DNA of 27,103 nucleotides from a virus. Positions 3 through 27,103 of the stretch are shown here, piece by piece. Both the position numbers and the translations under genes were made by a program. The notes beneath the pieces were generated by a model that searched no databases, was not told the origin of the DNA, and worked only from the letters and a program-made list of their open reading frames with translations. The first letter of the stretch is position 1. The number at the start of each line of letters is the position of its first letter. The DNA lies in the IMG/VR virus record IMGVR_UViG_3300023174_000556, positions 1 through 27,103 of that record. The stretch is one strand, 5' to 3'.

Positions 3-1154
3 AAAACTTTTCGTATTCACAAGCCTCACGGATACAAGCAAAAAAGTGCTGATAGGAACTTTCGCATCTTGGCGGATACCCTTGAACCCGCACCCAACTC
101 GCTTTACTACACGGCTCAAGAAGCCTACCTATCCAATCAAGTCGAACGTTGCATTGATTATAGCAAGAGGGCTTTAATGTTCCCAGAGTTAGACGATACG
201 CTCCGATACGATGTGCTTTGCAATTTGGGACGATGCACCGGGAAAGACGAAAGGCTAAAGTGGTTAGGCCAAGCAATCACGCTTCAACCAGACCGCCGAG
301 AAGCCCATTACTATACTGCGATGGAATACGCAAGCCGAGGGCAATGGAACAAGGCTTATGCATCTAGTCGAAGTGCTATGACGCTTCAAAGGCCAAAGAC
401 CCACTATTGGAATCAAGTCGAGGATGTCTATGATTGGAAAGCCCTAGACCTTTACCAGATCGCTTGCGTGTGCGTGGGCAATAATGAGGAGTCCGAAAAG
501 ATGTTGAAGATGTGGCCGACTCCTAAAATCACGCTCGTTCACGCAACCAGAGGCAGACCGCAACTGGCTTGGCAAAGAAGGTATCAATGGCTATCGCTTG
601 CCCAAAAGCCCCTAGAGATTCAATGGATTTTTGCAGTAGATCACGACGAGAAGGTGGACTATACCCCGCATCAAGCCATTCGATGCAACCCCGGAGGAAT
701 CATAAATGCTTGGAACGAGGGGGCAAAACACGCAAAAGGTGATGTGATTATTCAAATGAGCGATGATTGGTCTCCATGCAAGCATTGGGATGCCCTAATT
801 TTGAACGCTATTGGGGATACAAAGGCCGAGAAAGTGCTGGCAGTATCAGATGGGCTTCGCCAAGACAAACTGCTTTGTATGGCCATTTTAACGCAAAATA
901 GGCTAAACAAGCAGGGATATATGTTCCATCCAGACTATCAAGAGTCAGACGGCATCTATTCAGACAATGAGCATACGGAGAGAGCCTATGCCGATGGGGT
1001 GGTTATTGAGGCAAAGCACATTCAGTTTAAGCATGAAAACCCAATGTTCACTAAAGGCAACCCAGACGAACAACTTAAAAATCATAACAAGCCAGAGTTT
1101 TACGAAAAGGGCAAGGCCATATATGAAAAACGCAAAGCAAATAATTGGGCGTAA
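3..1154 (+). CDS. TPR-containing glycosyltransferase (5' truncated)
   Basis: The frame is open to the left edge of the window, so the first in-frame TTG at 69 is probably internal and the gene starts upstream; 383 residues are visible. The N-terminal half is helical and TPR-like (two-helix repeats with Tyr/Ala/Leu spacing). The C-terminal half, beginning about residue 176 of the visible part, looks like a GT-A fold: a beta strand ITLVHATRGRP, then a strand ending in QMSDDW, a DXD-type metal/nucleotide-sugar site near nt 756-770. Proteins with TPRs next to a family 2-like glycosyltransferase domain are known in phages and bacteria. It heads a cassette of sugar and methyl transferases. The acceptor is unknown; virion protein or host glycan are both possible. 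No terminator separates it from the next gene. Confidence 0.7.
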   Translation, partial: KTFRIHKPHGYKQKSADRNFRILADTLEPAPNSLYYTAQEAYLSNQVERCIDYSKRALMFPELDDTLRYDVLCNLGRCTGKDERLKWLGQAITLQPDRREAHYYTAMEYASRGQWNKAYASSRSAMTLQRPKTHYWNQVEDVYDWKALDLYQIACVCVGNNEESEKMLKMWPTPKITLVHATRGRPQLAWQRRYQWLSLAQKPLEIQWIFAVDHDEKVDYTPHQAIRCNPGGIINAWNEGAKHAKGDVIIQMSDDWSPCKHWDALILNAIGDTKAEKVLAVSDGLRQDKLLCMAILTQNRLNKQGYMFHPDYQESDGIYSDNEHTERAYADGVVIEAKHIQFKHENPMFTKGNPDEQLKNHNKPEFYEKGKAIYEKRKANNWA

Positions 1155-1350
1155 AAAAGACCTTGGAAGTCTTGTCTTTGGCAAGGCCAGAAAAGCCCCC
1201 AAAATGGTTGAAGTAGATGTTAGCTACGATGAGAAATGTGAAAATGCTTTATTTAAGGCTGGTATGATGGCGTTAAAATATGATAAAGAAGCCGTGATCG
1301 CCTATGTCATTCGCAAGGCTTTAGAGGAAAAGATTAAATGCAAGAAGTAA
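1123..1350 (+). CDS. Small hypothetical protein in the glycosyltransferase cassette
   Basis: A 75-residue lysine-rich protein. I chose ATG 1123 because an AAGG sits about 7 bases upstream and it would couple to the end of the preceding gene (32-base overlap); ATG 1204 is an alternative giving 48 residues without a clear ribosome binding site. The C-terminal half is predicted helical (ALFKAGMMALKYDKEAVIAY). It overlaps the start of the next methyltransferase gene by 13 bases, so it is translated in the same unit. I do not recognise a family. Confidence 0.5.
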   Translation: MKNAKQIIGRKKDLGSLVFGKARKAPKMVEVDVSYDEKCENALFKAGMMALKYDKEAVIAYVIRKALEEKIKCKK

Positions 1351-1946
1351 CCATTCAAGATTCGTTCGGGCAAGCATTGGCAAAACATACCAAGGGGCTT
1401 CGTATTGGGTTAGAGATCGGTGGAGGAACCGGGGACGGCTCCACGCAATGCATCCACACCGATAAACTATTTTCTATTGAGAATCACCCAGACCGCATTG
1501 GCCGCCATCGCATGAACCTAGACGCAAAGGGTGGAGTTTCGGTGCAAGGCACGGCAGTTATTTCTGGATTGTGGATGAACAAGGCAGATGTAAAGGAGTT
1601 TTACCGCATCACAAAAACCAATCTTAATCAATACCCGCTAGAGCAAATCTTTAGCTGGCACGATGAGTGCATACAAAATGCCAAGGACTACCAGACAAAC
1701 GCAATTGAAGACATTCACTTTGATCACAATGCGGATTTTAACTTTGTGCTGATTGATGGATCGCCATTCTCCGGGGAAGCAGAACTTCGATGCGTAAGGC
1801 CGTTCTTGGCGGATAAAGCAATCATAGCCTTGGATGATACAAACGACATCAAGAACTGGACGAATTACCACAAGCTAAAAGGATTCGCTAAATTGCTTTG
1901 GGAGGATTGGTCAGTGCGGAATGGGGCGGCCATCTTCCAGCTATGA
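1338..1946 (+). CDS. Class I SAM-dependent methyltransferase-like protein
   Basis: 202 residues. A glycine-rich SAM-binding loop IGLEIGGGTGDGST lies at residues 23-36, followed by an acidic strand end (SIEN, about 46-49) where class I enzymes bind the SAM ribose. A later strand FVLIDGSPFSGEAEL (about 136-150) and an acidic LDDTND (165-170) fit the distal part of the Rossmann fold, as in sugar or small-molecule O-methyltransferases. The substrate cannot be read from sequence; the glycosyltransferases on both sides make a sugar or glycosylated product the natural guess. ATG 1338 lies inside the end of the preceding gene, and the stop overlaps the next ATG. Confidence 0.65.
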   Translation: MQEVTIQDSFGQALAKHTKGLRIGLEIGGGTGDGSTQCIHTDKLFSIENHPDRIGRHRMNLDAKGGVSVQGTAVISGLWMNKADVKEFYRITKTNLNQYPLEQIFSWHDECIQNAKDYQTNAIEDIHFDHNADFNFVLIDGSPFSGEAELRCVRPFLADKAIIALDDTNDIKNWTNYHKLKGFAKLLWEDWSVRNGAAIFQL

Positions 1947-2455
1947 CCAAGGGCGTGATTACATCCGAGGCTCCACAGATTCATTGGGAGCATCTTAATG
2001 TTGCTGGTGGTCGTGTGCTGGACTTGGGGTGTGCGTTCTGGACTGAAGGCGAAAGACAAGAGGGCAATGGAACTGCAAAGTATTTCCTATCTAAAAAGCC
2101 AGAGTTTTATATGGGCGTGGATACAAATCAAGGGGACATAACCACTCTTTCCGCACAATATCCAAGCGGAGTCTTTAAGTGTGAAATGGTAGATTCATGC
2201 GATCAGATTTCAGAATGGATTAAATCCAATTCAATTACACATATTAAATGCGACATCGAGGGACACGAAACAAACTTCCTAAAGATGGATAATGTTGGAA
2301 CACTTAAAGAAATTGCAATAGAACTTCACGCATCGGACTTGTGGTTAAAAGAGTTTATGGTTTGGTTTGATTCGATTGGTTTTGAATGTTATCGTTACGA
2401 TTCAGTTTCTTTCTGTTCCGAGATTAGCGTTATCTATGGGCGATTAAAGTGCTAA
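1943..2455 (+). CDS. FkbM-like methyltransferase
   Basis: 170 residues from ATG 1943, which overlaps the TGA of the preceding gene (ATGA); an upstream in-frame start at 1898 would cost a 49-base overlap. Residues 25-30 read VLDLGC (SAM motif I) and about 101-109 read IKCDIEGHE, the Asp-Ile-Glu-Gly motif typical of FkbM-family O-methyltransferases. It is shorter than most family members, so the fold may be minimal. It probably O-methylates a sugar or sugar-linked product, by context. It is coupled to the following glycosyltransferase, whose GTG start lies within its last codons. Confidence 0.6.
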   Translation: MTKGVITSEAPQIHWEHLNVAGGRVLDLGCAFWTEGERQEGNGTAKYFLSKKPEFYMGVDTNQGDITTLSAQYPSGVFKCEMVDSCDQISEWIKSNSITHIKCDIEGHETNFLKMDNVGTLKEIAIELHASDLWLKEFMVWFDSIGFECYRYDSVSFCSEISVIYGRLKC

Positions 2456-3216
2456 CAATTTTTACCATCGTTCTCAATGGGATGCCCTACATAAATAGGC
2501 ATCTTGATGAGTTCAAGAAGCTCAAGATTCCTTGGCAGTGGAGGATTGTAGAGGGAGTTTCAGAACCACTAGGATGCACCCGATGGTGCAAGCAAGTTCC
2601 AGACAAATACCATAAGAACTTTGTAAGCGTGGACGGAACGCACGAATATCTAAACAGCATTAACGAACCAAACGTTTCGGTTTATTGGCAAGCGAAGTCT
2701 TTCCCCGGAAAGCTGGCAATGATTAAAGAGGCTTTGCATGGAGTGGAAAAAGGAGTGGTTATGGAAGTGGATACCGATGAAATGTGGAGAGCCGACCAGC
2801 TAGATGCAATCTATGGGCATCTAAAAGGATGCGAGGAAGGTCGAGCGATGCAGTTCCATTGCAATTACTATGTCGGGCAAAACAAGAAAGTTGTGACCAA
2901 GCAGGGTTTTGGGTCGAACTGGTATGAATGGTTTCGAGCGTGGAAGTGGGGGAAGGGCATTGAGTTTGTAAGCCACGAACCGCCCAAGCTAAATGTGAAT
3001 GGCCTTATGATTCCAAGAGGAATGACCGAGGCGTGGGGCTTAACCTTCGAGCATTTTGCCTATGCGACTAAAGAGCAAGTGCAGTTCAAAGAGGACTTCT
3101 ATGGCTACAAAGGATTGGTCGAAGGATGGGAAAAGCTACAAGAAATCAAAGGCCCGGTTAGGCTTGCAGACTATATGTCATTTGTAGCAGACAAGAGCGT
3201 TGCCGATGACTGCTAA
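2449..3216 (+). CDS. GT-A-type glycosyltransferase-like protein
   Basis: 255 residues with a GTG start at 2449 overlapping the previous gene by 7 bases. The N-terminus LTIFTIVLNGMPYI is the first beta strand and loop of a family 2-like glycosyltransferase, and MEVDTDEMW places a DXD motif at residues 108-110. The C-terminal part is Trp/Tyr/Phe-rich, as expected for sugar acceptor binding. Established for the fold: DXD coordinates the metal and the nucleotide-sugar phosphate. Inferred: a cytoplasmic enzyme acting with its neighbours on a shared glycan. It overlaps the next gene by 11 bases. Confidence 0.65.
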   Translation: MLTIFTIVLNGMPYINRHLDEFKKLKIPWQWRIVEGVSEPLGCTRWCKQVPDKYHKNFVSVDGTHEYLNSINEPNVSVYWQAKSFPGKLAMIKEALHGVEKGVVMEVDTDEMWRADQLDAIYGHLKGCEEGRAMQFHCNYYVGQNKKVVTKQGFGSNWYEWFRAWKWGKGIEFVSHEPPKLNVNGLMIPRGMTEAWGLTFEHFAYATKEQVQFKEDFYGYKGLVEGWEKLQEIKGPVRLADYMSFVADKSVADDC

Positions 3217-3877
3217 AACCATCATTTATCGGGAGCGTCTTGGAGATGTGCTTCGATGCCTACCAGCCGCCAAATTTCTAGCCGATAAAGGCCACGAAGT
3301 TTTTATTGATTGCTACGAGCAATATGCGGGGGTTTTCGATATGGTTTCATATTGCCAACGAGGGAACAAAGGCGATCAGATAGACTTGCAGATTTGGCCT
3401 ACTCGCTACGATGCTTTTATAAAAAGCCGTAAGCCTTGGCACGATTTTGTTTATGACCATCCAGAAATCAAGGATGCAGAAAAGACAAACATTGTTCTGG
3501 ATAAGCTAGACGAAAAGCCAGCCAAGGGGCTCCCAGAAACCTATAACCTAGTTGCACCATTTGGGATTAGTCAAAGCGACTATCGAAACCCCCTTTTAAT
3601 CATTAAGGATGCACGACAACAATTAGGAAAAGACAACTTCTATGTGCTAACCCCGCCAGACATTAAGATTCAAGGGCTAGACACCTACACGGCTCCAAGC
3701 GTTGCGGAGATGGCAAAGGCTATTCGTGGAGCAGAGAACTTTTGGGGAATCAATAGTTCTCCGATGATCTTGGCTTCGGCTGTTAGGCGGGGCAAAGAAA
3801 CGATGCTTTTTCCAGAGAGAAACGATTTTGCCATTCAGAATGTTTGGGACTTTGACGGCCTAATAAAAGCTGATTGA
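3206..3877 (+). CDS. Family 9-like (heptosyltransferase-like) glycosyltransferase
   Basis: 223 residues from ATG 3206; an in-frame TTG at 3200 is a less likely start. The opening KTIIYRERLGDVLRCLPAAK matches the beta strand, Gly-Asp turn and helix that start GT9 ADP-heptose:LPS heptosyltransferases. The region AEMAKAIRGAENFWGINSSP near residue 170-190 corresponds to the C-terminal donor-binding segment of GT-B enzymes. At about 220 residues it is roughly two thirds of a usual GT9 protein, so it may be a reduced form. Last gene of the sugar cassette. Its TGA lies inside a TTGACA motif that recurs before other late genes. Confidence 0.6.
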   Translation: MTAKTIIYRERLGDVLRCLPAAKFLADKGHEVFIDCYEQYAGVFDMVSYCQRGNKGDQIDLQIWPTRYDAFIKSRKPWHDFVYDHPEIKDAEKTNIVLDKLDEKPAKGLPETYNLVAPFGISQSDYRNPLLIIKDARQQLGKDNFYVLTPPDIKIQGLDTYTAPSVAEMAKAIRGAENFWGINSSPMILASAVRRGKETMLFPERNDFAIQNVWDFDGLIKAD

Positions 3878-3892: not shown

Positions 3893-4210
3893 ATGTCTGG
3901 CACGATTGACACAACCTACTTCTCCACCGATTTAACCTATATGATCGGAGACCTATGGGCGAGCGTAACCGGGTTGGGTTCCTCGGCGGTTTCGGCAAGT
4001 GTTACAGACCTTGGGACTGCACAAGAATTGGATATTGGTGGAGATGTCATTAGGATTACACAAAGTTTGGTGGTTAAGGCATCGGCAATATCAGCACCAG
4101 CAATCGGACAGCTTTGCTCTGTTTCTGGAGTCGAAAGAATGATTGCTGGATTTACCAAGGCCGCCGATGATGTTTCCTATACCATCGAACTAGCCGACAT
4201 TACGACCTAA
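3893..4210 (+). CDS. Putative head-tail connector / neck protein
   Basis: 105 residues, rich in Ser, Thr, Val and Ile with alternating beta-strand pattern. The segment MIGDLWASVTG followed by a small beta-barrel-like body and a C-terminal SYTIELADIT resembles short phage neck proteins in this position, but this is pattern recognition only. It opens the virion morphogenesis run and its TAA overlaps the next ATG (TAATG). Position before the tail-terminator-like pair supports a head completion role. An alternative is a minor tail protein. Confidence 0.45.
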   Translation: MSGTIDTTYFSTDLTYMIGDLWASVTGLGSSAVSASVTDLGTAQELDIGGDVIRITQSLVVKASAISAPAIGQLCSVSGVERMIAGFTKAADDVSYTIELADITT

Positions 4211-4626
4211 TGGCCTCTATTGAGCGAGAGGTTGAGAACGCCCTACTCAACGCAATCTCGGCGGTTACTGGCGTTAATTTCTACACAAGTGAACGAGGAA
4301 CGGCCAGAACGCTTCCGAATATCGTTGCCAAGGCATCCATAGGGTCGGAGCAACTAGGACCATTTACCGGGGTATTTAGCACACCAGCAAGCCTTACTTT
4401 TACCGCAAGAGCCGACACAAACTCTAGGGCAGACTTCGATGCCAAGTTTCAAAGCATCGTAGCCCAGCTCTATAGAAGCCCAAACCTTGCCAGCTATATG
4501 ACCAGCAACTCGAATATCACTTGTTATGTCGCAAATGTTACTGGAGAAAGCCCTAGTGTTGTTGCGGCCAATAGAACTTGGAGCAACGAAATAACCATAG
4601 ACATAACATCAACGGCTAAAAAATGA
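4210..4626 (+). CDS. Putative tail terminator-like protein, paralog 1
   Basis: 138 residues. An N-terminal helix (VENALLNAISAVTG) is followed by beta strands, the layout of small siphophage tail-completion proteins. The next gene encodes a clear paralog: the helix, the Tyr-Thr plus Arg-Gly/Gly-Ala turn, a Gly-Val-(Phe/Tyr) strand, an Asp-rich helix and a Ser-Pro-(Ser/Thr) strand near the C-terminus line up along the whole length. Starts by TAATG coupling and overlaps paralog 2 by 4 bases. The tail terminator assignment rests on size, secondary structure and position only. Confidence 0.45.
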   Translation: MASIEREVENALLNAISAVTGVNFYTSERGTARTLPNIVAKASIGSEQLGPFTGVFSTPASLTFTARADTNSRADFDAKFQSIVAQLYRSPNLASYMTSNSNITCYVANVTGESPSVVAANRTWSNEITIDITSTAKK

Positions 4627-5045
4627 GTCAATCCACCCAGATTCTTGTAGAGGATGCGGTTTCCAGCCTTTTAAGTGGCGTTTCCGGTCTTAATCGCTAT
4701 ACCACCAACCGCACCGGGGCTAGGTTGTTTCCGTTCGTTACAATATCGGCAACCATAAACACCCAGCTTCTTGTGCCTTATAGTGGGGTTTATGATTTGA
4801 ATGTGGCCGTGAACTATTCTGATACATCGGCCAAAGCAACCCAAGCAGAGTTTGATTCGGAATATTGCTCTATTTTTGAGGCTTTTTACTCTGAATCACC
4901 AACCTTAACGGACAAGTTACAGAATGTGGCAGTAGGAACAAAAATCTATATGGCTCGGATTACCAGCCAAAGCCCAACCATTAGGGCTAATAAAAGGGCT
5001 TGGCAAAGAGGCTTAACACTAAATGTTTATGCAACGCCTCAATGA
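4623..5045 (+). CDS. Putative tail terminator-like protein, paralog 2
   Basis: 140 residues, diverged tandem copy of the preceding gene. Shared landmarks include VEDAVSSLLSGVSGLNRYT at the start (compare VENALLNAISAVTGVNFYT), a Tyr-Ser-Gly-Val-Tyr strand, an Ala-Glu-Phe-Asp helix start and SQSPTIRANKRAW near the end (compare ESPSVVAANRTW). One copy may be the tail terminator and the other a stopper or neck component. It is linked to both neighbours by ATGA overlaps. Confidence 0.45.
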   Translation: MSQSTQILVEDAVSSLLSGVSGLNRYTTNRTGARLFPFVTISATINTQLLVPYSGVYDLNVAVNYSDTSAKATQAEFDSEYCSIFEAFYSESPTLTDKLQNVAVGTKIYMARITSQSPTIRANKRAWQRGLTLNVYATPQ

Positions 5046-5589: not shown

Positions 5590-5934
5590 ATGCCTGCCGT
5601 CACAATAGGAACTTCGGGGCTTGTCTGGGGCTGTACCGCAGAGGCCATTGGCCTTGTGCAGTCTTTTAGCGAAGCTCGTAACATTTCTAAATCAGAAATT
5701 ACTAACAATGTTGGGGAAATTGTTGGTATCTCTTACTATAACCCCACTACCGCTTACTCGCTATCCGTTGCCGTAACTGGAGCAATTTCCGTTACTGCTG
5801 GAGGTGCTTTGGCGGCACTCGCAAATGCGGCTACGGTAGGAACGACTCGGATTGATTCCTTGACGATCAACAAATCGCCCGATGCGTTTGTTACCCTCGA
5901 TATATCGGCTACTGGCTATCCGAATGTAAGTTAA
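5590..5934 (+). CDS. Putative major tail tube protein
   Basis: 114 residues, beta-rich and low in charge, with alternating Val/Thr/Ser/Gly (SVAVTGAISVTAGGALAALA). It is preceded by one of the strongest ribosome binding sites in the window and followed by a hairpin, both fitting a major structural gene. It lies directly before the frameshifted chaperone genes and the tape measure, the usual place of the tube protein in siphophages. It is short for a tube protein (commonly 140-250 residues), so a minimal tube or a capsid/tail decoration protein remains possible. Function is inferred from position. Confidence 0.55.
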   Translation: MPAVTIGTSGLVWGCTAEAIGLVQSFSEARNISKSEITNNVGEIVGISYYNPTTAYSLSVAVTGAISVTAGGALAALANAATVGTTRIDSLTINKSPDAFVTLDISATGYPNVS

Positions 5935-5971: not shown

Positions 5972-6352
5972 ATGATGGAAGCCTTTTGGGGAACAACAAA
6001 TATCAAGGTGGCATCTGCCGTTGCCACTTATGGTGGTAAGTTACGCTCTATTGACGGGGTAACAACGCAAGTCTACGAAGATGGCAGGAGGCAGACAACT
6101 TTTTGGTTTCAAGCCGATGGAGCCGGAACAATGGCTAGGGATGAAATGCAATGTCCTTGGGCTGAAATGAAAAGCGATATAGAGTCTCCAATTCGATATA
6201 TTCGTGCCGCCCTTGAGAACCGAGAAACACTTCTTGGCTTGGTCAAGAACAAGGTTGAACCTATCCGCATCATCCAACGAGGCAATCAAACCCTTCTTAT
6301 CCCAGAAAACGCAAAGCCAGAACTCAAGAAAGCAATCCTAAAACACCTATGA
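5972..6352 (+). CDS. Hypothetical protein between tail tube and chaperones
   Basis: 126 residues. The N-terminal half is beta-rich (KVASAVATYGGKLRSIDGV, then QTTFWFQADGAGTM). The C-terminal half is helical and charged (ALENRETLLGLVKNKVE, PELKKAILKHL). ATG-ATG at 5972 has no strong ribosome binding site. It overlaps the next gene by 4 bases, so it belongs to the tail assembly group. I do not recognise a family; a tail completion or additional chaperone role would fit the position. Confidence 0.5.
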   Translation: MMEAFWGTTNIKVASAVATYGGKLRSIDGVTTQVYEDGRRQTTFWFQADGAGTMARDEMQCPWAEMKSDIESPIRYIRAALENRETLLGLVKNKVEPIRIIQRGNQTLLIPENAKPELKKAILKHL

Positions 6353-6729
6353 GCATATCCCTAGAAGAAGAACTAAATTCATCGTTTGTAGCCCCAGAGC
6401 GTGAGTTTATGGGAGAGAGACTGGCCCCATATACCGAGGGTTCTAGGTTGCTTTTATTGCAAGTTAGGGACGATAACGACTCGTCCATTTACTTTATTTG
6501 GGCTTTTATTTACATGCATATTCAGATTGCAAAAAACCGAAGGGATGCAATCAAATTAGCTTGGGATAAAGATTTATTTAGAGAGAAAATCATTGAATAT
6601 ATTGAAGGAAAAAACGAATCTGATAGAGATTCCGCAACAAAAATTGTTTCTTCAATGGTCGATGAGGCACAAAAGGGAAGGGTTGAAGTAATTCAGACTC
6701 ACGGATTACCCGACTCGGGAAACGCATAG
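6349..6729 (+). CDS. Tail assembly chaperone, short (zero-frame) product, gpG-like
   Basis: 126 residues, largely helical and acidic/basic mixed (NRRDAIKLAWDKDLFREKIIEYI). It sits between the tube protein and the tape measure, where siphophages encode a chaperone pair made by programmed -1 frameshifting (gpG and gpGT in lambda). Seven bases before its TAG is GGGAAAC in the phase G GGA AAC, a canonical slippery heptamer. The short protein would be the main product and would coat the tape measure during tail assembly. Starts by an ATGA overlap with the gene before. Confidence 0.7.
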   Translation: MSISLEEELNSSFVAPEREFMGERLAPYTEGSRLLLLQVRDDNDSSIYFIWAFIYMHIQIAKNRRDAIKLAWDKDLFREKIIEYIEGKNESDRDSATKIVSSMVDEAQKGRVEVIQTHGLPDSGNA

Positions 6730-6935
6730 CGCCAGCCGGAACGGCAAATTTTGTCTTCTTGCTGGCCGAAAAGACCGGGTGGAGTGTTGAGTATATTTTA
6801 TGGGAAATGCCTTTATCTTTATTGTGCCAAGCCAGCCATTCTTTCCTATGGTCTGCTGGAGTAAGGTGCAGAAGGATATTGAGAGAGATAGGAAAAGACA
6901 GAAGCGATCTTGAAAGAATGTTGGGTTTAACATAA
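6349..6935 (+). CDS. Tail assembly chaperone fusion by -1 frameshift, gpGT-like
   Basis: Predicted frameshift product: 125 residues in the zero frame to the AAC at 6721-6723, then 70 residues in the -1 frame from CGC at 6723 to TAA at 6933-6935, 195 residues in total. The -1 extension is protein-like, including LLAEKTGWSVEYILWEMP and a Trp/Leu-rich helix, similar in character to T domains (a short helical piece beginning after a Trp-Ser pattern). It has no credible start codon or ribosome binding site of its own and would otherwise leave a 200-base gap in a tightly packed operon. In lambda the T extension recruits tube subunits to the tape measure complex. Confidence 0.75.
6717..6723 (+). promoter_or_regulatory. 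Slippery heptamer for -1 ribosomal frameshifting
   Basis: GGGAAAC read as TCG GGA AAC in the zero frame, exactly the X XXY YYZ phase. Lambda uses GGGAAAG for its G/GT genes. The zero-frame stop TAG follows one codon later at 6727-6729, and the -1 frame stays open to 6935. Confidence 0.8.
6731..6766 (+). promoter_or_regulatory. Stem-loop downstream of the slippery site
   Basis: GCCAGC at 6731-6736 pairs perfectly with GCTGGC at 6761-6766. A competing smaller hairpin GCCG-GAA-CGGC lies at 6735-6745. The 7-base spacer from the heptamer is in the range known for frameshift-stimulating structures. Confidence 0.55.
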
Positions 6936-6945
6936 TCAAGATTAT

Positions 6946-7731
6946 ATGCTTACGATTAGCCTATTAAACCAAGCAAAGTTTGTTCACAAATTGCAACAAT
7001 ATCAGCAAGTTTCACGCAAGAATATGGCTGATGTTATCAATAGCAAACTTGGAGATGTTGCGGTTACGGCTATTGGTACTACCTACCGAACAAACACGGC
7101 TCAAATTGCTTCCGAGCTTCAAAGGATTCAGACTACAACCAAAATGAAAAAGGTTTTTAAGCCAATAGGTTTGGATGCAAAGGGAAGATTAAGAAAAAGG
7201 AAAATAGGTCAGCACTTGGTTAAAGAATCTAAATCAGTTGCATACGAAGGAACATATAGGTTGGTTAATTGGTTATTGAAAAATAGGGGGCTTCCCACGC
7301 TTGGTAAAACCAAACTTGGCCTTGGTGGTCTTGGAATGGGAACCAAACCCGGAACGATTGGTGCCTTGGCTCGTAGGCTTGTAGCTGGAAGAAAGCGTTC
7401 AGTTAATTACATAAGAAACGGATGGGCGGCGGCGGCGGCTATATTTGGCAAAAGGGCAAGCCTTTCAAGGGGTGATTATAGTAAAGCCGCAATTATGCGT
7501 CTTGGAGGAGGTAGCAAGGCAGATTCAAATAAAGCCAGAATGGAGGGCATTATATTTAATCGTGCTGGCGATAAAGACACTAGATATTATCCAGTAAGAA
7601 AAAGATCAGTTTCTGGTGCCGTAAAGGTTGGCTTGCCGGGTCTTTTAGAGGCAATAGACAAAGTTATGAAAGATATGGCAGTTTATCTTGCTAAAAAAGA
7701 TAAAGAGTCGAGTGACAAGTTAAGACTATAA
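6946..7731 (+). CDS. Basic hypothetical tail-region protein
   Basis: 261 residues, very rich in Lys, Arg and Gly, with an N-terminal helix (KFVHKLQQYQQVSRKNMAD) and a Gly/Leu-rich centre containing a run of five alanines after a Trp. It lies between the chaperones and the tape measure, and its stop is one base from the next ATG. I do not recognise a family. The charge and size would fit a structural or assembly protein that contacts nucleic acid or the acidic parts of other tail proteins. Confidence 0.55.
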   Translation: MLTISLLNQAKFVHKLQQYQQVSRKNMADVINSKLGDVAVTAIGTTYRTNTAQIASELQRIQTTTKMKKVFKPIGLDAKGRLRKRKIGQHLVKESKSVAYEGTYRLVNWLLKNRGLPTLGKTKLGLGGLGMGTKPGTIGALARRLVAGRKRSVNYIRNGWAAAAAIFGKRASLSRGDYSKAAIMRLGGGSKADSNKARMEGIIFNRAGDKDTRYYPVRKRSVSGAVKVGLPGLLEAIDKVMKDMAVYLAKKDKESSDKLRL

Positions 7732-7732
7732 T

Positions 7733-9247
7733 ATGGCTGACGCAACCCAAGAACTAATGCTCCGAGTCCGTGGGGACAATAGTGGAGTCGATAAAGCCGT
7801 TGATGGCACAACTAAAGCAATAGGACGATTAAAACTTAGCGGTGAAAAGGCCAGAGCCGCTTTTGGTCAATTTACAAGTGGCTTGAAAGATGCAACCAGC
7901 GCAAGTGATATTGCTGGTTCTGCGGCGAATGCATTAGGCAACACTTTTATAAAAAGCCTAAAAGGGGCGGCAATTGTTGGTGCCGCAAAAGTTTTATCTT
8001 CAGAAATAGAACAGGTTGCCACATCGTTAAAAGAAGCGGCAACTGCCGCTCAAAAAGCATTTGATGATATAGAAAAAGCTGGACAGGCGATGGATTTGAA
8101 TGAAGCGCAATCGCAAATTTCTGCCATAAACACTCAGCTTGCAATTACAAAAAACAAGGTTGATGAAATTGAAAGGCATCCGTTTAAAAACTTTATATCG
8201 AATGTTTCTGGCGCTACGGATTCCTTAAAAGAACTTGTAAAAACCGAGGAACGCTTGCGTGATATGAAGTTTGCCGAAGGAATGGTAACGCAAAACGCAA
8301 CCGAGGAAAGATTGGCTGGATTAAATGACGAAGAAAAAGCGTTAGCGGCGATTGACCAAGAATACGAAAAACGAAACAAACTCGCAGAACAAATTACAGA
8401 CCCGCAAGCATATCAAGAATTTCAAAACGCAAGCGCAGAAAAACACGCAAGGGACAGAAACGCACTTCTTGATAAACAAGCCAAAACTAGAGCAGACAAG
8501 GAACAACAATATCAAGAGGAAGTTTTTAGGGCTGAAATGGCCGCTTCTAAATTTGAAAGAGAAACAAAAGAAAAGGCTGACAAAGAGTTGGCAGACCAGA
8601 GAAAAGCAGACGCCGATTCGGCCCACAAAGAAGCTCTTTACAACATAGAGGAAGAGGCAAAATTACAAGAGAAATTAGATAAAAATAAATTCGATAGAGA
8701 AATACGTGATGCTCGCCAAGTTGTAGAAGCGCAAAAGCAAGCCAAAATAAATTTAGATAGAGGAGCGCAAGCTCAAAAGCAATTTGGTGGTGGATTGCTT
8801 GGTGCATCGGCATCTGGAAGAGTTGCATTGGAGTCGGCTCAAAAACAAAGAGAAAGACAAGTAAAACAAGAAAACTTTAAGACTCAAGAGGCATACTTTG
8901 AAGAGAAGGCAAAAGTAGAAAACGAAAAAAGAATTAGAATGGGATTGTCTGGCGGGGTTACTGCGGGAGATATAAAAAGACAAGAAGCAGAAAGAGTTGC
9001 GGCGGCAAATGCTCCAACTATTGCAGAACAAGCGCAAGCTCAAGCTCAAGGCATTAGCCCAGAACAAGTGGCGATTGGGAATGTTCTCCAGAAGCAAGCA
9101 GTTAGTCTTGGGTATCAAGCACCCCCGCAGGAAGAAACCAGAGACGCTTGGAAGGGTGAATTAACCAAAACAATGAAAACCATGCTAGACACCCTAAATT
9201 CTCTCATGTCTGCCCCATTGGTTACATCTGGGGCCGGGGGCACATAA
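7733..9247 (+). CDS. Tail tape measure protein
   Basis: 504 residues. The N-terminus (ELMLRVRGDNSGVDKAVDG) has the pattern common at the start of tape measure proteins: a beta strand with Gly-Asp-Asn then a helix linking to Ala/Gly-rich membrane-like sequence (about 60-105). Residues from about 105 to 400 are charged coiled coil with many Lys/Glu/Ala/Gln. By the usual 1.5 Angstrom per residue rule this predicts a rather short tail, near 75 nm at most. It follows the frameshifted chaperones directly. Its TAA overlaps the next start (TAATG). No lysozyme or peptidase domain is visible. Confidence 0.7.
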   Translation: MADATQELMLRVRGDNSGVDKAVDGTTKAIGRLKLSGEKARAAFGQFTSGLKDATSASDIAGSAANALGNTFIKSLKGAAIVGAAKVLSSEIEQVATSLKEAATAAQKAFDDIEKAGQAMDLNEAQSQISAINTQLAITKNKVDEIERHPFKNFISNVSGATDSLKELVKTEERLRDMKFAEGMVTQNATEERLAGLNDEEKALAAIDQEYEKRNKLAEQITDPQAYQEFQNASAEKHARDRNALLDKQAKTRADKEQQYQEEVFRAEMAASKFERETKEKADKELADQRKADADSAHKEALYNIEEEAKLQEKLDKNKFDREIRDARQVVEAQKQAKINLDRGAQAQKQFGGGLLGASASGRVALESAQKQRERQVKQENFKTQEAYFEEKAKVENEKRIRMGLSGGVTAGDIKRQEAERVAAANAPTIAEQAQAQAQGISPEQVAIGNVLQKQAVSLGYQAPPQEETRDAWKGELTKTMKTMLDTLNSLMSAPLVTSGAGGT

Positions 9248-25406: not shown

Positions 25407-25708
25407 AACGCACCCCACTTAAACGCAAAACTCCACTCAAGCGGAGTGGCAAGCTACGCCGAGTTTCTAAAAAGCGAAAAGGCCAGAACGAAGTCTATAA
25501 GGATGTGCGGGAAAAGTTTCTTGCAAATAACCCGGTCTGCCAAGTTTGTAGATGCAAGATGGCAAGCCAAGTGCATCATCGCCGAGGAAGATTTGGGGAT
25601 AGGCTGAACGAGACCGAGTTTTTCTTGGCCGTGTGCTTTGATTGCCATCACGAAATTCATCAGAACCCACAATGGGCTTACGAGCGTGGATATATGGTTA
25701 AGAGATGA
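25403..25708 (+). CDS. HNH endonuclease
   Basis: 101 residues from ATG 25403 (ATGA overlap). A very basic N-terminus (KRTPLKRKTPLKRSGKLRR) is followed by VCQVCRCKMASQVHH, with Cys-X2-Cys and the catalytic His-His, then AVCFDCHHEIH, completing the beta-beta-alpha-metal HNH motif. HNH proteins encoded beside terminase genes are known to assist DNA cleavage during packaging in several long-tailed phages, which fits this position. Its stop overlaps the start of the large terminase gene. Confidence 0.8.
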   Translation: MKRTPLKRKTPLKRSGKLRRVSKKRKGQNEVYKDVREKFLANNPVCQVCRCKMASQVHHRRGRFGDRLNETEFFLAVCFDCHHEIHQNPQWAYERGYMVKR

Positions 25709-27103
25709 ACCAGATTTTCGATGTTAAGCAATTTGCAAGATCAATCTTTGAGCCAAGGGAAAAACTTTCAATCCCAGAGTGGGCAGAAAAGAATCTAACC
25801 CTTTCGGCTAGGGTAACCAATATCCCCGGAGCGTATTCGACCAAGCTAACTCCTTATGTAAGAGAGCCGTTGGAGGCTTTTGGTGATGACTCGGTTCGCA
25901 GGGTTACGCTCGTATGGGGGGCACAAACATCAAAGACAACGACCATTTTAGCTGGCCTAGCTTATAGAATTGCAGAGCATCCTTGTCCCGCACTATGGGT
26001 TATGCCATCCGAGGCTTTGGCTAGGTCGTTCTCTGAAACTCGGTGGCTTCCGATGGTGGACGATTGCCCTGCATTGGCAAAAGAAAAGCCAGACAACACC
26101 GACAAGATCAAAATCCTAGAGCAACACTTCCGCAGAATGTCACTTTGGTTTGTGGGGTCGAACAGCCCTGCCAATCTTGCGTCTCGTTCTGTTTCATTGC
26201 TGATGCTCGATGAGGTGGACAAATATCCCGATGCGGGGTCGAGCAAGAGCGAAGCAGGGGCATTGCAGTTGGCAGAAGCCAGAGTTGCTACCTACCCAAA
26301 TCACTTAATCATCGCCACATCTACGCCAACCACGGCTGATTCTACAATTTGGGCAGAATGGCAAAAAGGGGATATGCGTTTCTTTTTTGTGCCTTGCCCA
26401 CATTGCAACCACAAACAGAAGCTAATCTGGGGGCAAGTAAAATGGGACGAGGCCGCCAAGATCAAGGAAGCAGTTTATGATTTTAAGCTAGTTAAATCAT
26501 CGGCCTACTATGAGTGCGAGAACTGCAAAGGAAAGATTACGGACGGCCAAAAGACAGCGATGCTCCGGGGTGGAGAGTGGATTCCTACCAACCCCAAGGG
26601 AGAGCCAAACCGCCGAAGCTATCACCTTAACGGACTATATGCCCCTTGGGTTTCGTTTGGCTCCCTAGCGGTGAAGTTCCTTCAAGACAAGTATAGCGGA
26701 ATCATCGGCCTACAAGACTTCGTGAACCGCATCCTTGCCGAACCTTGGCTAGAACACGAACAAGAGCGAATCGAGATCAAAGCGGGTGGTTACAATATGG
26801 GTATTGTTCACCAAGGCGAGAAAACCATTATGTCGGTCGATGTGCAAGAATCTGGTGGGTTCCACACTTGGGCTTTGGTTAGGGCTTATAATGGCGAAGG
26901 AAAGTCTCGGATGGTCTGGGCTGGTAGGCTTGAAACTTGGGGCGATGTGGCGGCGAAGGCTGATGAATTTGAAGTGGAACCTAGATGCGTTGTGATTGAT
27001 ACTGGCGATCAAACCCGCCTTTGCTACGAGTGGATTTGTAAGATGGGCTGGTTAGGTCTTGTGGGTTCGGACAAGGCCAGCTTCTCCGAGATCGTAGGAC
27101 AGC
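25705..27103 (+). CDS. terL: Terminase large subunit, GpA-like (3' truncated)
   Basis: 466 residues are visible before the window ends. The ATPase part has a Walker A-like WGAQTSKTTT (about 71-80; Ser replaces the usual Gly before Lys) and Walker B LLMLDEVDKY (165-174), then the coupling segment IIATSTPTT. A zinc-type CPHC...CENC pair lies at about 231-274. The nuclease part begins at about 376 with MSVDVQ and VIDTGDQ, giving the first acidic metal ligands. This order fits the lambda gpA family (PF05876 type). It packages DNA into the prohead with the small subunit. Confidence 0.9.
   Translation, partial: MNQIFDVKQFARSIFEPREKLSIPEWAEKNLTLSARVTNIPGAYSTKLTPYVREPLEAFGDDSVRRVTLVWGAQTSKTTTILAGLAYRIAEHPCPALWVMPSEALARSFSETRWLPMVDDCPALAKEKPDNTDKIKILEQHFRRMSLWFVGSNSPANLASRSVSLLMLDEVDKYPDAGSSKSEAGALQLAEARVATYPNHLIIATSTPTTADSTIWAEWQKGDMRFFFVPCPHCNHKQKLIWGQVKWDEAAKIKEAVYDFKLVKSSAYYECENCKGKITDGQKTAMLRGGEWIPTNPKGEPNRRSYHLNGLYAPWVSFGSLAVKFLQDKYSGIIGLQDFVNRILAEPWLEHEQERIEIKAGGYNMGIVHQGEKTIMSVDVQESGGFHTWALVRAYNGEGKSRMVWAGRLETWGDVAAKADEFEVEPRCVVIDTGDQTRLCYEWICKMGWLGLVGSDKASFSEIVGQ

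Follow-up and report, generated by a model that had tools for sequence, protein, structure and literature searches.

A putative programmed -1 frameshift in a probable tail assembly chaperone locus conserved among uncultivated phages

Introduction

Programmed -1 frameshifting in tailed phages is a textbook mechanism, and in phage lambda the slippery heptamer is G_GGA_AAG. The lambda gpG/gpGT frameshift is described in PMC5009743, which cites Xu, Hendrix and Duda 2004. In this system gpG, present in large excess, is the binding partner of the tape measure protein, and the T domain is that of the tail shaft subunit (PMC5009743). Low sequence similarity is usual among G-T chaperones, G-T shifts being reported as widely conserved nonetheless, and the haloarchaeal tailed virus HCTV-1 has a G-T frameshift at G_GGA_AAC (PMC5009743). 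Here we analyze a locus at 6349-6935 of the window, a 27,103-nucleotide (nt) stretch of viral DNA that derives from IMG/VR record IMGVR_UViG_3300023174_000556 and on which all window coordinates are given. We interpret it as encoding a tail assembly chaperone of the lambda G/GT type, expressed by programmed -1 frameshifting in a tailed phage, with a probability of roughly 0.95.

The window locus differs from lambda gpG/gpGT in several respects: its heptamer ends in AAC, the site is followed at 7 nt by a 6-bp stem that covaries, the tape-measure candidate is one gene further away, and the protein has no detectable sequence similarity to named chaperone families. The G-T pair of HCTV-1, a virus with an archaeal host, has the identical heptamer, and the likeness is one of the heptamer.

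The frameshift site and its conservation

The G-like open reading frame (ORF) occupies 6349-6729 on the + strand, as do the other elements of the site, and encodes 126 amino acids. The heptamer GGGAAAC lies at 6717-6723, and the zero-frame codons are GGA (6718-6720), AAC (6721-6723), GCA (6724-6726) and the stop TAG (6727-6729). An earlier note on this DNA had proposed a heptamer in the G GGA AAC phase 3 nt before the TAG, a -1 frame open for 70 codons past it to the TAA at 6933, and a 6-bp stem (GCCAGC/GCTGGC) starting 7 nt past the heptamer; direct reading places the first exactly to the base and confirms the other two. The T-like -1 extension spans 6723-6935, with its TAA at 6933-6935, within an open span of 6687-6935, and the predicted fusion of 195 amino acids would have the junction ...PDSGN-RIAPAG.... 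The arms of the putative stimulatory stem are at 6731-6736 and 6761-6766, separated by a 24-nt loop.

By itself the window heptamer is unremarkable. There are 19 in-phase heptamers in the 24.3 kb of window coding sequence, and the single-sequence fold of the site is not exceptional (z -0.5), so that the heptamer alone is weak evidence; GGGAAAC at 6717-6723 is the only in-phase heptamer in the window within 40 nt of its stop.

Scans of IMG/VR with each of the two parts, G and T, and with an alignment of each yielded 115 distinct sequences having both parts; these are related to each other and do not represent 115 independent events. Neither the heptamer nor the -1 frame enters into the G-alignment scan, and that share of the sample is thus unselected for them; of the two patterns in the T-alignment scan, one (GKR...) includes the heptamer. 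The G-like protein of the window has IMG/VR relatives that are 52-94% identical to it. All 115 have an in-phase slippery heptamer (108 GGGAAAC, five CCCAAAC, one GGGAAAA and one GGGAAAG), followed by a zero-frame TAA, TAG or TGA at an offset of +10 in 104 and +7 in 11. The extension is 69-74 codons long in most relatives, with a few shortened by contig ends. The earlier note would have taken homologs with neither the heptamer nor the downstream -1 frame as a refutation of frameshifting; none of the 115 lacks either, with four ending at a contig edge within the -1 frame.

Selection in the -1 frame

Across 451 sequence pairs the -1 frame has a median nonsynonymous divergence (dN) of 0.21 and a synonymous divergence (dS) of 1.07, with a ratio of 0.19, and by this measure the extension is a protein under purifying selection. 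Synonymous constraint, measured as observed and expected codon identity where the amino acid is the same, peaks over the heptamer and near the two arms of the stem. The -1-frame codons GGG and AAA of the heptamer are invariant among their synonymous choices (1.00 observed in both, against 0.26 and 0.54 expected, respectively). The excess runs on through the spacer and the 5' arm, as with ACG at offset 12 (1.00 against 0.26), and returns at the 3' arm at offsets 42-48, where the Leu codon at offset 45 has 0.56 observed and 0.19 expected. Other codons in this frame are mostly near expectation, with some modest excesses.

The downstream stem

All six stem pairs are formed in each of 46 aligned sequences and none is broken. 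Compensatory changes occur at two of the six pairs, from C-G to G-C and from G-C to A-U, with G-U intermediates. Covariation was scored against 500 shuffles, none of which equalled the score of the stem, and 18 stem cells are altered on both sides, against 5.7 in the shuffles. A conserved RNA structure is present a few bases past the heptamer, and we regard it as a putative stimulator. This stem is the only conserved helix found in the 130 nt downstream, so that a search for a conserved pseudoknot was negative, and the RNA of the site has no match in Rfam. A Shine-Dalgarno-like stimulator upstream of the site was considered and rejected, the 4-mer being present in 9 of 63.

Taken together, the heptamer in 115 of 115 relatives, the stem in 46 of 46 sequences and the dN/dS of about 0.19 in the -1 frame indicate that the site is not a chance occurrence.

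Relatives in Verrucomicrobiota genomes

A first scan of genomes with the G alignment as query found nothing. Scanning with the T alignment gave five relatives, all of them in metagenome-assembled genomes (MAGs) of Verrucomicrobiota, namely Chthoniobacterales, Pedosphaera, an unplaced Verrucomicrobia bacterium, Akkermansiaceae and Chthoniobacter. In all five a G ORF ends at CCCAAAC or GGGAAAC with the extension in the -1 phase, such that none lacks the heptamer or the -1 frame, and all five have the same 6-bp stem, 7-nt spacer and 24-nt loop. A portal gene is located upstream in L170 and L174, with a protease and a major head protein gene also in L170, and a tape measure gene lies downstream in L170, L172 and L174. 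Because of these relatives in Verrucomicrobiota genomes, the window phage probably infects a member of this phylum.

A further sample of 388 genomes of the phylum Verrucomicrobiota provided more distant relatives. The junction heptamer is CCCAAAC, AAAAAAG, GGGAAAG or AAAAAAC in eight of these (L180-L182, L184-L187 and L192). The stem register is lost in the distant relatives tested, although heptamers are kept.

Protein families and structures

Neither part of the window protein has a significant family match in Pfam, PHROGs or the PDB. The T-like part is modeled by AlphaFold2 as four helices with a predicted local distance difference test score (pLDDT) of 83, and the G-like part as helical with a pLDDT of 82. 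Foldseek gives no significant structural match for the parts; for T, the second-ranked hit is the Burkholderia phage Mica tape measure chaperone, at E 0.93. The earlier note had suggested a homology search of the extension against T-domain chaperones, and this gave no significant match to a named family.

Searches of isolated phages by tblastn with the G part, and with the tape-measure-candidate and tube-like ORFs, found nothing. The T profile has a weak match in one genome (E 2e-4), that of Bacteroides phage p00 (BK010646.1; L169), where the T-like segment FVWQIASATGWSVDYIL stands in -1 phase to the ORF that precedes it, as in the window. This ORF lies directly before the annotated tape measure gene and has an in-phase CCCTTTT at L169:3884-3890; the reading frames are annotated only as hypothetical, and searching by sequence did not reveal a G part. 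L169:3474-4204 is likely to be an unannotated tail-chaperone frameshift.

Interpretation

The arrangement of the two frames and its conservation are direct observations, as are the selection on the -1 frame as coding sequence, the covariation of the stem and, in relatives, the placement upstream of tape-measure genes. Most ribosomes would translate 6349-6729 to give the 126-residue G-like protein, and a minority, aided by the hairpin at 6731-6766, would slip by -1 on G_GGA_AAC at 6717-6723 and read to 6933 to yield the 195-residue G-T fusion. By analogy with lambda, such slippage presumably occurs and is infrequent, the G-like protein may coat the tape measure protein and the T-like segment may recruit tail tube subunits.

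Several points weigh against this interpretation. Searches of Pfam, PHROGs, the PDB and BFVD gave no significant hit to any named family of chaperones, and the candidate for the tail tube gene, ORF 5590-5934, has no family or phage match. Among the distant Verrucomicrobiota relatives, the junction is ambiguous in L188 and L189-L191, and L183, near a contig end, has no qualifying heptamer. Three of the six stem pairs are invariant and carry no covariation information, and the arms double as code for conserved residues. Finally, the A-site codon is AAC and not the AAG preferred in E. coli, and the efficiency of frameshifting therefore cannot be assumed.

Alternatively, reinitiation or an internal start past the zero-frame stop might translate the -1 frame as a gene of its own. 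Many relatives do have a GTG or TTG in the -1 frame, a start-like codon of some kind being present before the heptamer or in the 22 codons after it in 97 of 115, and the stop and start regions are close together. However, over that stretch 109 of the 115 have no ATG and 18 have no ATG, GTG or TTG, making an independent start of the second frame unlikely; moreover, the conserved protein starts right at the heptamer (GKR), and reinitiation has no need of an invariant slippery heptamer in phase. In the window, where the earlier note saw no start site for the -1 frame, there is no ATG near the site, and the sole early start candidate past the heptamer is a TTG, the 15th codon counting from GGG, which sits within a conserved helix. 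A separate gene thus seems very improbable to us. The frames can also be joined by a shift of one base, and a lone contig could not exclude that a frameshift mutation or assembly error had split one chaperone gene, leaving the -1 frame to decay. This is already refuted by the offset, which is the same across many metagenomes, in all 115 distinct sequences, and in the five MAG loci, together with purifying selection in the -1 frame and maintenance of the zero-frame stop, and we give it practically no weight.

A different question is whether the shift is genuine and the stem is no stimulator, its arms being conserved only on account of the residues for which they code (P-A/G and L-A). The three pairs that never vary, the loss of register in more distant Verrucomicrobiota relatives that keep a heptamer, and the unexceptional single-sequence fold would all fit with this. 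Against it are the compensatory changes and G-U intermediates, the lack of any broken pair in 46 sequences, a score matched in none of 500 shuffles, and the raised synonymous conservation at the arm codons, and we consider it unlikely that the stem is a bystander.

The protein family is absent from the libraries searched, and within the frameshifting interpretation we see about even odds for a more specific proposal. This would be an undescribed chaperone family of Verrucomicrobiota phages, in which a frameshift signal of fixed layout (heptamer, 7-nt spacer, 6-bp stem and 24-nt loop) is maintained as an RNA module across highly divergent proteins, and in which the AAC in the A site is perhaps tuned to the transfer RNAs of Verrucomicrobiota. 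The locus gives an anchor gene to the tail module of a large group of uncultivated phages and links that group to a likely host phylum, and its more than 100 conserved natural signals form a series for asking what kinds of heptamer and stem are functional in bacteria distant from E. coli.

Neighboring genes of the tail module

The next gene past the frameshift cassette is a conserved tail-module gene for a protein of 261 amino acids at 6946-7731 (+ strand, ATG start), and the second, at 7733-9247 (+ strand), is the tape-measure candidate. The latter is proposed from its position and from genes positioned like it in L010, L170, L172 and L174, which match tape-measure PHROGs; the window protein itself gives no significant hit to any family, nor can it be aligned with the tape measure of L010. 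Upstream, the chaperone is separated by ORF 5972-6352 from the tube-like ORF at 5590-5934, which is conserved. The earlier note had put the site between tail tube and tape measure, and what stands of this is a location upstream of a tape measure gene, which the PHROG matches in relatives support. The two are not its immediate neighbors, as one ORF intervenes on each side, and the tube-like ORF is a candidate tail tube gene.

In six relatives (L010, L015, L048, L050, L131 and L145) the -1 frame and the next gene overlap by four bases, at the stop of the former and the ATG of the latter. Such an overlap is as expected of translated neighbors and suggests translational coupling of the extension to the next tail gene.

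Elsewhere in the window, the adjacent ORFs at 4210-4626 and 4623-5045, encoding 138 and 140 amino acids, by eye resemble diverged tandem copies. Genes resembling those for glycosyltransferases, methyltransferases and TPR-type proteins, again by eye, are present at the left end (3-3877), upstream of the tail module. At 25705-27102 is a large terminase gene that runs off the contig end; terminases of isolated phages are about 29-35% identical to its product, and one of these related terminases is annotated as lambda-like.
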